Shown here: piece by piece, positions 1-11,549 of the stretch
Layout: the number at the start of each line of letters is the position of its first letter
How positions within the stretch are numbered: the stretch's first letter is position 1
Origin: Eubacteriales bacterium
GTDB taxonomy: Bacteria > Bacillota > Clostridia > Lachnospirales > Lachnospiraceae
Assembly: GCA_030536855.1 (NCBI GenBank)
Contig: JAUNPK010000022.1
Coordinates: 1-43,194, forward strand
Direction: 5' to 3'
Length of the DNA: 43,194 nt
Made by a program: the position numbers and the translations under genes
The notes under the pieces: model-generated
What the model was told of the DNA's origin: nothing
Databases searched by the model: none
What the model saw: the letters and a program-made list of their open reading frames with translations, nothing else

Positions 1-1339
<1,339 letters not shown>

Positions 1340-1350
1340 TTATTCCTTTC

Positions 1351-1364
1351 TGAGCTTATGCTCA
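1351..1364. repeat. Small palindrome between grpE and dnaK
   Basis: TGAGCTTATGCTCA is a short inverted repeat (5-bp arms, TTAT loop) in the 45-nt grpE-dnaK gap, just before the dnaK SD. Processing or attenuation hairpins are known between genes of this operon in other Firmicutes; here the role is only inferred. It has no U-run, so it is not a standard terminator. Confidence 0.45.
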
Positions 1365-1381
1365 ATTAATAACTTTTTAAA

Positions 1382-2041
1382 TTAGTTTGCTACTTTAACC
1401 ATACTGTGACGAATCACAGTTTCTCTATAAGTGTAGCCCTTTTCAAATTCCTCAACCACAATGTTTTCGCCTACGGAATCATCTTCCACATGCATTACCG
1501 CATTGTGAAGATCCGGGTTAAACTCTAAACCAACTGCCTCAATAGGCTTTACCTGAAGTTCCTCAAGCATCTTTATTGTCTGCTTGTAAACCATATCCAT
1601 ACCTTTGGCAAATGGTGTTTCTAACTCCTCATCTGTGACAGACTTAAATCCTCGTTCAAAATTATCCACAATCGGAAGTAATTTCTTAACTACATCCGAA
1701 GCTCCCATTTCAAACATTGAAGATTTTTCTTTCTCAGTACGCTTTCTGTAATTATCAAACTCAGCCATCTGACGCTTCAAACGATCTTGTAATTCTTCAA
1801 TCACAGCGTCCTTCTGGTCCTTCTTTGAGGATTTCTCCTCTTCTATATCAACTGTTTCCTCCGCTTCCTTCGCATCACTTGCGTCGGATGATTCTTCTGC
1901 TTCTGCTGATGAATTCTCCTTCACATCTGCGTCGTCGCCTTGAGTTTCTACAGTATCAGCGTCTTGTTCAACATTTTTTTCTGTTTCATCAATATTATTT
2001 TTTACTTCTTCCTCAAACTGATTCTCATCTTTTTTAGACAC
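1382..2041 (-). CDS. grpE: Nucleotide exchange factor GrpE
   Basis: GrpE drives ADP release from DnaK. The 219-residue protein has an unusually long acidic, low-complexity N-terminal tail (about residues 1-80, rich in Glu, Asp and Ser), then a long helix (VIEELQDRLKRQMAEFDNYR) and the C-terminal beta domain (LPIVDNFERGF, GLEFNPDLHNAVMHVED, YRETVIRHSMVKVA). The start is GTG (2039-2041), with the SD GAGGTGAGAG just upstream; no ATG alternative fits better. It lies 15 nt downstream of the hrcA stop and 45 nt upstream of dnaK, so it is translated from the HrcA-controlled operon mRNA. The family is certain; only the role of the acidic tail is unclear. Confidence 0.97.
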   Translation of the reverse strand: MSKKDENQFEEEVKNNIDETEKNVEQDADTVETQGDDADVKENSSAEAEESSDASDAKEAEETVDIEEEKSSKKDQKDAVIEELQDRLKRQMAEFDNYRKRTEKEKSSMFEMGASDVVKKLLPIVDNFERGFKSVTDEELETPFAKGMDMVYKQTIKMLEELQVKPIEAVGLEFNPDLHNAVMHVEDDSVGENIVVEEFEKGYTYRETVIRHSMVKVAN

Positions 2042-2056
2042 TTAACTCTCACCTCT

Positions 2057-3142
2057 CTATGATTTCTTAAAAACATCATCCAACTGCGTACGCATATTTT
2101 TAAGGGTTTCTACAACCTTTTCATAATTCATACGCTTTGGACCAATGATACCGATTGTACCCTTCATTCCATCTGCAAGTTCATAGGTTGCTGTAACAAC
2201 ACTACAATCCTTCATGGATTCAACCGGTGTCTCATTTCCTATATATACCTGAATACCATGGTTGGAATTATCGTCACCATCCACAACATCCATATCTGTT
2301 GATACGAGATCTGTGAGACTCTTCTTTTCCTCCAGGGCATATATAAGCTCACTGGCTTTTGTAGAATCACTAAGTTCAGGATACTTAAAAATGTTGGTAG
2401 CTCCGCTGGTATATATCTTAAGATCATCTGCATTGCTTATAGTATCAACAATGGCATCCAGTACTTCCTTTACAAGATTAATATGCTCTCCTGCCTGATT
2501 CTCCATTTTGGAAACAATGCTTAAGTTCATTTCTTCCAGGGTAAGCCCTGTCAGCGTGGTATTAAGAAGAATATTAAGCTTAAGAAGATTCTCCTGAGAA
2601 ATTTCCTCGCTTACTGTAATAACCTTATTCCTAATAAGGTTTCCTTCCATTACTATGACAGCAAGGATCTTATTAGACTCCAGCTGCGAAAGTTGAACAA
2701 ACTTCAACTTGTTTCCCTTTACCTTAGGAGTGGTAATCATTGTTGCATAATTGGTATCTTTAGCCAATACCTTAGCAACATTTTGAAGAAGTTCTTCCAC
2801 TCTGTCCACTTTCTGTGAAAGCATATCCTTCATGGAATTAAGTTCCTTTTCCTTATCAGCAACTTCCAATTCCCTTTCTGATATTCCCTTCTCTTTCTCT
2901 GCCATCATATCATCAACATAAAATCTGTATCCCTTATCTGTAGGAATTCTTCCTGCTGATGTGTGAGGCTGGACAATGTATCCAAGTTCTTCCAAGTCTG
3001 CCATTTCATTTCTTATTGTTGCTGAGCTGAGTTTCATATCCGTAAGCTTTGAAATTGTCCTTGAACCTACAGGTTCCCCTGTATCAAGATAATTCTGTAT
3101 AACTGCCTTTAATATCTTAACCTTACGCTCATCAAGCTCCAT
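2057..3142 (-). CDS. hrcA: Heat-inducible transcription repressor HrcA
   Basis: HrcA represses the class I heat-shock operon by binding CIRCE. The protein has an N-terminal winged-helix domain (about residues 1-75: ERKVKILKAVIQNYLDTGEP, VGSRTISK, SSATIRNEMADLEELGYI, PHTSAGRIPTDKGYRFYVD), then a GAF-like domain and C-terminal dimerisation region (GIIGPKRMNYEKVVETL). A longer frame opens at 3175, but the ATG at 3140-3142 has the SD GGAGGG at the right distance. The longer start would also lie inside the CIRCE operator. The chosen start gives 361 residues, usual for the family. It is first in hrcA-grpE-dnaK and therefore autoregulated. Identification is certain and the start is well supported. 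Confidence 0.97.
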   Translation of the reverse strand: MELDERKVKILKAVIQNYLDTGEPVGSRTISKLTDMKLSSATIRNEMADLEELGYIVQPHTSAGRIPTDKGYRFYVDDMMAEKEKGISERELEVADKEKELNSMKDMLSQKVDRVEELLQNVAKVLAKDTNYATMITTPKVKGNKLKFVQLSQLESNKILAVIVMEGNLIRNKVITVSEEISQENLLKLNILLNTTLTGLTLEEMNLSIVSKMENQAGEHINLVKEVLDAIVDTISNADDLKIYTSGATNIFKYPELSDSTKASELIYALEEKKSLTDLVSTDMDVVDGDDNSNHGIQVYIGNETPVESMKDCSVVTATYELADGMKGTIGIIGPKRMNYEKVVETLKNMRTQLDDVFKKS

Positions 3143-7450: not shown

Positions 7451-7501
7451 TAGGCAATTTTCCTTTTCACATTTTACCTTTTCACATTGAGTTCCTTAGG
7501 A

Positions 7502-7507
7502 TATAAT
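7502..7507 (+). promoter_or_regulatory. Putative -10 box upstream of the long hairpin and AP2-like gene
   Basis: TATAAT on the plus strand, with a weak TTTTCA 17 nt upstream as -35. If used, transcription would start about 10 nt before the 232-bp hairpin, making that hairpin the 5' leader of the AP2-like mRNA. Confidence 0.4.
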
Positions 7508-7523
7508 TAAAACAATTAATACA

Positions 7524-7755
7524 AATAATTATTATAGGTATTTGCAAAACTCTGTGATTTAATACTGTACGTTGTGCAATTATACTATGTTACCGCTAGG
7601 CACGCTCTCGCTGCTTGCTGCTCACAGCGGTGCATAAACGGCTAAAATACAGCCGCTAAGCACCGGTGGCAGCAAAACACCTAGCTTGCAACATAGTATA
7701 ATTTCACAACTGTTCAGCACCGAAAATGTGTTTCGCAAATACCTAAATAATTATT
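7524..7755. repeat. Long imperfect inverted repeat (232 bp) forming a hairpin
   Basis: The left arm (7524-7600) and right arm (7680-7755) are near-complementary. They pair at AATAATTATT with AATAATTATT, TAGGTATTTGC with GCAAATACCTA, AATTATACTATGTT with AACATAGTATAATT, and GCTAGG with CCTAGC. The loop itself folds: CGGTGC...CGGCT pairs with AGCCG...GCACCG, and TGCTG with CAGCA. The result is one long stem with a GC-rich tip in otherwise AT-rich DNA. It ends directly at the SD (AAAGGAGGAG) of the AP2-like gene. It could be a MITE-like DNA element or a structured RNA leader. It contains no coding frame of note. Confidence 0.85.
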
Positions 7756-7773
7756 AGAAAGGAGGAGTAATTT

Positions 7774-8598
7774 ATGCCAGCAGGAGTATACAAAACTAGA
7801 AAAAAAGATGGCTCACCTTACTATAGGGTTTCTTTTACTTATAAAAATAAACATATAACCCTTGGTGGATTTGATGATGAAAATGTTGCTGCTTCCGTAT
7901 ATATTACAGCAAGAGAGATAGTGTCTGATTCTGCAAAATATTACATTGACCCTGACACTCATACCTCCTCTTATAATAACTGTAATCAGAACTTTCCTTT
8001 TAACAAATTTATTACTCTCATCAACTTCAGGGACAATGATATATACATAAAGACTCCTATATACTTATGCAAGAATTGTTTTCTGTACTTTCTTGCTCCC
8101 AACAACACACTAATCTTTTCCACGGACGATTTATTCTACTATTCCAACCACACCATAATGACAAGAGGGGGATACTATTTTGTCAATGATTATGGTATGC
8201 AGACAAGCATTTTATCAAGATACGGAATAAGAAACCACTCAGTTAAAGGTCGTGATTACATTTTTAAAAATAATGATGAACACGACTTTCGTTATGAAAA
8301 TGTACTGGTAATTAATCATTTCAATGGTGTAACACAGATTGAAAAAAAAGGACGGACCATGTACCAGAGTAAAATCCACATTAACGGGGATTTCATTATC
8401 GGTACATATCCCACAGAAAACGAGGCTGCCATAGCCTACAATAAGGTAATAGATATGTTGTCCGGGGTTGTTACGACCCAATACGCTGACAACTATATTG
8501 AAAACATATCCTCCATTTCCTATGCATCAATATATAACAATGTAAAAATCTCAAAAAAACTTCTTAACTATATTAAGGAAAGGGGTCAGACCCCATAA
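7774..8598 (+). CDS. AP2-like / degenerate HNH-like DNA-binding protein
   Basis: A 274-residue protein resembling bacterial and phage HNH-AP2 endonucleases. Residues 4-45 (GVYKTRKKDG, YYRVSFTYKNKHITLGGFDD, ENVAASVY) look like an AP2 domain. Residues 183-230 (NGVTQIEKKGRTMYQSKIHI, GDFIIGTYPTENEAAIAYNK) are a second one. Between them, about 141-181, the segment GRDYIFKNNDEHDFRYENVL aligns with the HNH core before an AP2 domain. However, the usual DH/HH of that core is replaced by Tyr-Ile, so nuclease activity is doubtful. The start ATG has a strong SD (AAAGGAGGAG). The last residues (RGQTP) and the stop are encoded by a 76-bp palindrome. The long hairpin upstream and palindrome downstream suggest a mobile or formerly mobile unit. 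The function is not known. Confidence 0.72.
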   Translation: MPAGVYKTRKKDGSPYYRVSFTYKNKHITLGGFDDENVAASVYITAREIVSDSAKYYIDPDTHTSSYNNCNQNFPFNKFITLINFRDNDIYIKTPIYLCKNCFLYFLAPNNTLIFSTDDLFYYSNHTIMTRGGYYFVNDYGMQTSILSRYGIRNHSVKGRDYIFKNNDEHDFRYENVLVINHFNGVTQIEKKGRTMYQSKIHINGDFIIGTYPTENEAAIAYNKVIDMLSGVVTTQYADNYIENISSISYASIYNNVKISKKLLNYIKERGQTP

Positions 8599-8656
8599 AA
8601 TTTTTATAAACTTTTTCCAGAAAAAGTTTATAAAAATTTTATGGGGTCTGACCCCT
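8581..8656. repeat. Perfect 76-bp palindrome (37-bp arms)
   Basis: Arms 8581-8617 and 8620-8656 are exact reverse complements around a CA centre. Each outer end carries AGGGGTCAGACCCC, itself a small palindrome, and the inner part is AT-rich. It contains the last codons and stop of the AP2-like gene and ends 8 nt before the flotillin stop codon on the other strand. It may serve as a bidirectional transcription stop, but lacks a classic U-run. GGGGTCAGACCCC-type motifs resemble REP-like mobile repeats. Confidence 0.95.
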
Positions 8657-11014: not shown

Positions 11015-11500
11015 CTACTTATTGTTTATATAATTAACAAGCCCTTCTGCTTTTATTATCTTCTGCATAAATTCCGGGAAAGCCTGACCCTGGAAAGTCT
11101 GACCTGTAGTCTTATCTGTAATAACACCACTGTCAAAATCAATTGACACTTCATCACCATCATTTATTGCCTTTGCTGCTTCAGGACATTCGATAATAGG
11201 AAGTCCAATATTGATAGAATTTCTGTAAAAAATTCTCGCAAATGTTTCTGCAATAACACAGCTTACTCCTGCTGCCTTTATAGCTATTGGTGCATGTTCT
11301 CTTGATGAACCGCATCCAAAATTCTTATTGGCAACAATAATGTCACCCTTGCTAACCTTATTAACAAATTCTTTATCGATATCTTCCATACAGTGAGTTG
11401 CTAACTCTGCCGGATCAGATGAATTAAGATATCTTGCAGGGATAATAACATCTGTATCGATATTATCACCAAACTTAAACACTTTACCTTCTGCTAACAT
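11015..11500 (-). CDS. leuD: 3-isopropylmalate dehydratase small subunit
   Basis: With LeuC it isomerises 2-isopropylmalate to 3-isopropylmalate in leucine synthesis. The 161-residue protein shows the swivel-domain motifs [16 protein letters not shown], the aconitase-type [12 protein letters not shown] and [15 protein letters not shown]. The ATG at 11498-11500 has the SD CGGAGG; a longer frame starts at 11530 but has no better SD. It follows leuC by about 49 nt and precedes a terminator. Bacterial short-form LeuD proteins of about 160-165 residues fit this length. Confidence 0.97.
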
Positions 11501-11549
11501 AAATATTCCTCCGTTTCTACGCTGTTTCACCGCGCATCTTCATAACATA

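Follow-up and report, generated by a model that had tools for sequence, protein, structure and literature searches.

The stretch of DNA analyzed here, hereafter the window, comprises 43,194 nt of a Lachnospiraceae draft genome that we assign to the genus Lachnospira (contig JAUNPK010000022.1; the genome, G000, consists of 54 contigs and 2.4 Mb). Its features of interest, collected in Table 1, lie around the start of a gene for an AP2-like protein, which is preceded by a long hairpin that the original prediction had put at 7524–7755, exactly at the ribosome-binding site. The hairpin is real: the predicted fold of this interval has a free energy of −90.6 kcal/mol, as compared with −50.5 kcal/mol for shuffled sequences (sd 4.2, n = 200; z = −9.6), and none of the 200 shuffles folds as well. 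The arms of about 76 nt that had been described do pair, but their outermost ∼11 bp are a target-site duplication rather than part of the element. This duplication happens to be almost self-complementary and mimics an outer hairpin arm; the true unit is slightly narrower than the interval first proposed. The Shine-Dalgarno (SD) sequence does follow the hairpin directly, just outside the duplication. The promoter-like site described ahead of the hairpin is likewise present, but it is weak evidence for a promoter, since 10 such sites are found where 6.3 are expected by chance. At the other end of the AP2-like gene, a long inverted repeat (GGGGTCAGACCCC..GGGGTCTGACCCC, 8582–8655) spans the stop codon.

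Table 1. Features at and around the hairpin upstream of the AP2-like gene
Feature	Coordinates	Strand	Basis
Promoter-like site, TTTTCA-17-TATAAT	7479–7507	+	10 of 12 consensus matches; no evidence of function
Left target-site duplication, AATAATTATTA	7524–7534	+	Direct reading
MITE, 211 bp, TAGG..CCTA	7535–7745	+	Copies, duplications, ends
Left terminal inverted repeat, TAGGTATTTGCAAAAC	7535–7550	+	One mismatch to TAGGYRWTTGCGAAAC
Conserved structured module	7573–7709	+	R1 match, 147.5 bits (this copy is one of the 15 used to build R1)
Mini-hairpin GC-TCTC-GC, loop TYNC (GNRA on minus strand)	7604–7611	+	Aligned copies
Right terminal inverted repeat, TAGGTATTTGCGAAAC, facing the SD	7730–7745	−	End-pattern search
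Right target-site duplication, AATAATTATTA	7746–7756	+	Direct reading
Shine-Dalgarno, AAAGGAGG, immediately beyond the right duplication	7758–7765	+	Direct reading; family pattern
AP2-like gene, 274 aa, ATG at 7774	7774–8598	+	Conserved host gene, outside the element

The hairpin is a miniature inverted-repeat transposable element (MITE) insertion rather than a leader peculiar to the AP2-like gene. In its own genome, 40 places match the element, of which 11 (the window copy counted) are near full length at 85–100% identity, the others being partial or matching the opposite arm. With one mismatch or none allowed, the end pattern TAGGYRWTTGCGAAAC is found 37 times in the same genome, and the reversed control pattern not at all. 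By plain DNA comparison, 5/41 genomes, G000 included, have relatives of the element; the refuting outcome named with the original prediction, a lack of copies elsewhere, did not occur. About half of the copies are flanked by duplications. Exact duplications of at least 8 bp are seen in 8/17 measurable copies of G000 (three of 20 were left out for want of a recognizable left end), as against 1/272 mismatched end pairs, and in 10/24 copies of other genomes (three of 27 left out, an end being missing), as against 1/552; the remaining 9/17 and 14/24 show none. The distance from AGG to CCT is 200–209 bp in 23/24 of the copies in other genomes, and there are also mini-elements that have these ends but no core. 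No listed ORF of at least 60 aa lies inside the 211-bp element, which hence has no transposase gene. Ends in common with an autonomous insertion sequence (IS), target-site duplication and multiple dispersed copies all bear out the "MITE-like DNA hairpin" that had been one of the three readings offered. Plasmid records searched for the element gave no match, and a pattern scan of viral contigs found a single stretch (L133), which is without an R1 match and was discarded. In G013, a genome of the same genus that we take to be Lachnospira rogosae, an ORF at L157 1899–2888 lies beside a coreless TAGG-ended element and presumably resembles Rpn/PD-(D/E)XK transposase-type nucleases; for an Rpn-like ORF next to one element, the neighbors of the copies yielded no relative. 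Among known MITEs, MITEAba12 is similarly short and non-autonomous, shares its termini with an IS and is reported to have target duplications in 40% of its copies (PMC6382973). The MITE here differs from it in carrying a conserved structured module and in a placement tied to SD sites.

The ends of the MITE match those of a 1.7–1.8 kb insertion sequence of other Lachnospiraceae, in which TAGGCGTTTGCGAAAC-type and GTTTCGCAATTACCTA-type ends surround transposase genes. Eight of the 10 copies with both ends span 1745–1811 bp. All three transposases examined (485–526 aa) match DUF772, the transposase type common to the IS1182 family and this element, and NCBIfam IS1182 is their best model; we name the element IS1182-like only, because the scores (64.2, 69.3 and 77.9 bits) are below the cut-off of 270. 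Duplications of 13, 14 and 13 bp flank the copies at L313, L315 and L323, and at L322 a 12-bp duplication pairs the right end with the outer of two left ends, which lie 461 bp apart (847–3066), so that a nested insertion is likely there; 6/10 of the both-ended copies have no exact duplication of at least 8 bp. Transposase relatives (E ≤ 1e-20) are present in 19/299 genomes of the family. Within the genus, G005 has a transposase fragment with a DUF772 match that is preceded by a TAGGCGTTTGCGAAAC end, and in G002 such an end lies, by eye, before a decayed fragment. A transposase of this kind was not found in the 54-contig draft of G000, and the window copy would have been moved by such an enzyme in trans. 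Members of the IS1182 family are reported to pick special targets such as hairpins and palindromes, and IS1272/TnSha1 to make no target duplication and to replace inverted repeats (PMC4923244, PMC5678879). The IS described here, unlike IS1272 as reported, makes duplications of 10–14 bp and adjoins SD motifs.

The center of the MITE is a structured module of ∼138 nt. With R1, a covariance model built from 15 cores, matches were found in 17/41 genomes: 16/22 of the genus, 1/3 of the other genomes of the family and 0/16 of other families. In a sample of the family, 114/299 genomes (113/298 genera) contain the module, and in a sample of the class 8/341 do, all of them Lachnospiraceae. Because few candidates were scored per genome in these searches (11 in the family sample, 9 in the class sample), the copy numbers are minimum values, and weakly matching carriers could have escaped notice. 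The check for compensatory changes was strongly positive. In an alignment of 121 matches, drawn from 100 selected loci and comprising 117 distinct rows, pairing is seen in 92.9% of the cells as compared with 58.2% in shuffles, and 2086 cells are changed on both sides as compared with 589. The covariation score reaches 0.842 as compared with 0.201, with slid controls at or below 0.133; this alignment was fitted to R1 and leans toward the model. In an initial MAFFT alignment, of 16 sequences, 32/54 pairs were doubly changed (16.2 in shuffles) and the score was 0.370 (0.172 in shuffles). Coarser measures, namely pairs with change on both sides (51/52 as compared with 45.9) and further pair types (174 as compared with 178), discriminate little at this depth. 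The two-pair mini-hairpin with its TYNC loop is kept in 117/121 aligned copies. As with the structured RNA families of Rfam, the consensus structure is backed by covariation; unlike them, the window copy reaches no family's gathering score, a scan of the whole window returning no family at that score and a best sub-threshold E of 0.49.

The module is not confined to this MITE. In G194 it is part of an element of ∼275 bp whose ends are of the GGTTCGGGTGTCAAAAG type (L248–L256), flanked by repeats of 7–8 bp that are exact over 7 bp in 8/9 copies and mismatched in one, by eye. Another repeat, whose GGGGCTGTCGCATTAAGAAATTATTGCGGCGCC-like ends are of the GGGGCTGTCGCA or GGGGCTGTCACA type, encloses it at L136 and L138 (G000) and L082 (G005); L135, L137, L065 and L089 seem to be decayed or incomplete forms. 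MITE-module copies precede many unrelated genes, and inverted module pairs between genes recur in several genera. One such pair lies between what we take to be aspS-like and gatC-like genes in four genomes of the genus (L152, L068, L069 and L084), and its apical stems are fast-changing yet paired. A link to a neighboring gene was sought by all-against-all blastp of the neighbors and rejected, as no family is common to many copies. The larger clusters correspond either to a single orthologous locus, with 9 entries each, or to common families, among them an ABC-transporter-like cluster of 7 members and smaller ones of 4.

Two readings of the action of the module are considered. In one, it is an RNA element of transcript ends, a REP-like mRNA stabilizer or processing site, that was picked up by MITEs. 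The positions of the 153 copies without MITE-a ends lend this some weight: a stop codon lies within 80 bp on the 5′ side only in 57 and on the 3′ side only in 15 (both sides, 10), and inverted pairs sit between genes. However, 71 of the 153 have no stop codon within that distance, orientation in tandem gene contexts is unbiased (31 and 40), and the MITE copies sit in 5′ leaders. Many module copies are orthologous among related species, and therefore these context counts are not independent.

The base pairs themselves give a divided answer. Of 213 arm pairs, 109 share no 12-mer yet stay largely complementary; they contain 3903 Watson-Crick, 102 G-U, 111 A-C and 263 other pairs, and pairing is perfect in 10 of the 109. 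G-U thus equals A-C, an outcome that would not be expected if selection acted on a single RNA strand; by a similar count, a 6S control, itself weak, had 51 G-U and 27 A-C. In 49 copies aligned locally, 45 G-U are found as compared with 86 A-C. In A5, the outer stem has 29 G-U as compared with 67 A-C. The A5 core stem has 87 as compared with 46, mostly from two pairs with 45 and 20 G-U and no A-C, which is what an RNA would show, while three other core pairs favor A-C over G-U (14 to 2, 11 to 8 and 7 to 3). Because these counts differ between sets, the evidence on RNA or DNA is contradictory, and we regard the transcript-end RNA as possible, though rather unlikely.

The other reading takes the module as a single-stranded or cruciform DNA hairpin for a recombination or replication protein, with palindrome correction keeping the arms complementary. 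The symmetry of the G-U and A-C mismatches suits this, as do arms that are unrelated between paralogs and still complementary; at one orthologous site, the core in G009 is like those in G002 and G017 and the arms are strongly different but paired. DNA mini-hairpins of the GC-GNRA-GC type are unusually stable, and the module has one on its minus strand. A GGACG tag, which reads CGTCC in reverse, marks the 5′ foot of 47/198 copies and the 3′ foot of none, and points the same way. Against this, no protein partner was found: Y1 transposases (PF01797) do not co-occur with the module, being present in 58/114 genomes with it and 115/185 without, and mobilization by RAYTs was rejected on this ground. 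The bias of stop codons to the 5′ side hints, moreover, at transcription. We give the DNA hairpin a similarly doubtful standing.

REP and REPIN sequences are 20–40 bp palindromes with a GTAG or CGTC tag (PMC3733652, PMC3116915). The module resembles REP, BIME and REPIN elements in being extragenic, in frequently forming inverted pairs and frequently lying downstream of genes, and in its foot tag. It is unlike them in its length and elaborate covarying core, in carrying the GGACG tag in only a minority of copies and in its lack of association with Y1/RAYT-type transposases.

We now turn to placement. In the insertion sequences, a GGAG, AGGA or GAGG motif at nt 10–26 outside the end is present at 14/14 left ends and 0/8 right ends, against a background of 10% at randomly chosen positions in these loci. 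The left ends tested were 14 of 15, L310 being omitted because it is flanked by a further copy of this IS (that flank also reads GAGGAG); of the 15 loci from the transposase search, L316, L318 and L319 were not entered, no good left end having been found. A later set, consisting of 19 of the 30 loci of one fetch (the other 11 repeat earlier places) and 5 further loci, gave 13/19 left and 3/24 right ends in a raw count before hand sorting, and the three positive right ends proved to be left ends read from the opposite strand. The hand count allowed at most two mismatches, took account of transposase orientation and omitted places already counted (L338, L359), L358 (which repeats L334) and second-strand reads of L355–L359. 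It gives the motif at 9/10 left ends and 0/11 right ends, or at 8/9 left ends without the doubtful L353, which has two mismatches and an unusual distance to the transposase; the left end that lacks the motif is L356. These later copies are partly non-independent, as L329, L354 and L355 are in G684 and L356 and L357 in G119, and the latter is also the source of L313, so that the earlier and later sets overlap in genome.

The MITEs follow a similar pattern. Among 30 module-bearing copies from several genera, with module ends fixed at 37 nt outside the model match, an SD-led open start lies within 60 nt of an end in 21, as compared with 27.8% for random points outside the long ORFs of the same loci (p = 2e-6). 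Within the 20–40-nt band it does so in 20/30, as compared with 13.3% (p = 2e-11). An earlier, cruder gene calling had placed 15/30 within 45 nt, as compared with 24.5%. By the motif test, 23/30 are positive where 19% are expected, with the motif confined to the right end in 12 copies and to the left end in 11; no copy has it at both, and 7/30 have none. The SD-led-start test fails for 9/30 MITEs; 11/15 insertion sequences pass it and 4/15 fail, and the coreless mini-elements pass in 4/8 (p = 0.014). As SD-adjacent placement recurs in the IS, the MITEs and the mini-elements, it follows the transposon and not the hairpin or the AP2-like gene, and the hairpin lies "exactly at the ribosome-binding site" probably because its transposon family inserts that way. 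Among the matches listed, literature on this repeat or on SD-targeting transposition was not found.

These observations make it very probable that the hairpin is a MITE of an IS1182-like insertion sequence, placed in AT-rich DNA directly upstream of an SD. In the mechanism that we propose, the IS1182-like transposase would put elements into AT-rich DNA immediately 5′ of an SD motif, making a target duplication of ∼10–14 bp. The insertion in the window kept the promoter-like site and the ribosome-binding site whole, the hairpin becoming part of the leader, and the module is separate cargo traveling in the center of the MITE. A similar distribution could arise by survivorship only, if insertion into AT-rich DNA were random and mostly insertions between promoter and ribosome-binding site persisted. 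The duplications do look AT-rich by eye, and such sites are probably the least harmful to genes. However, survivorship does not require an orientation, and it is the left IS end that is turned to the SD in 14/14 and 9/10 cases, the right end in 0/8 and 0/11. Since the orientation to the SD is fixed, recognition of the target is favored and survivorship on its own appears improbable; the placement would reflect target choice by the transposase, though selection for the least harmful insertions could contribute in part.

The AP2-like gene itself is conserved independently of the element. It has matches at 42–72% identity in 24/40 other genomes and 20/21 within the genus, and a single-match ortholog in 21/22 genomes of the genus. 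The AP2 label of the 274-aa protein is weakly supported: the window protein has no family match, 2/7 orthologs match Pfam AP2 (best E 0.0029), and a profile comparison matches the PDB AP2 protein WRI1 with E = 6.7e-4. No hairpin is seen by eye in the 140 nt before the start of any of 19 fetched orthologs, and an R1 search of the fetched flanks finds no module upstream, its sole other matches there being a module pair downstream of the gene in G013. That inverted pair (L139, 1037–1757) lies between the ortholog and a presumably leuD-like gene, and a gene that we also take to be leuD-like is near the AP2-like gene in the window, at 11015–11530. It is therefore very improbable that the element is a cis-acting leader RNA regulating the AP2-like gene or an operator bound by its protein, and the proposed recognition site is rejected: its position between promoter-like site and SD, its folding, its covarying pairs and module pairs 110 bp behind the ortholog in G013 and 1.2 kb away in G023 would fit, but none of the 19 orthologs has it upstream, copies precede many unrelated genes, G012 has 21 module matches and no ortholog match, and the SD is predicted to be open to a similar mean degree in the presence of the element (0.37) and in the joined empty site (0.33). 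The effect of the element on the AP2-like gene is accordingly predicted, from folding, to be small. For the further suggestion of a structured regulatory RNA the evidence is mixed: covariation is strong, but the arms have no G-U excess of the RNA type and the predicted exposure of the SD is nearly unchanged.

Returning to the MITE reading, its two halves can be joined, tentatively and at somewhat less than even chances, into one: a transposon family that recognizes SD DNA in one orientation, and a widespread module whose upkeep does not work through a single RNA strand. Insertion just 5′ of the SD would then be a gene-safe strategy at ribosome-binding sites, and the module, with a conserved core and complementary "barcode" arms particular to each copy, would travel in three or more types of MITE whose ends are unrelated, besides being placed behind genes.

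Lachnospiraceae are major gut anaerobes, and a transposon that lands beside the ribosome-binding site, leaving promoter and ribosome-binding site unbroken, would explain how their leaders gain long hairpins. The drift of the arms, which remain complementary as they change, makes the choice between selection on RNA and palindrome correction of DNA directly testable, and an SD-adjacent transposon could become a tool for tagging leaders.
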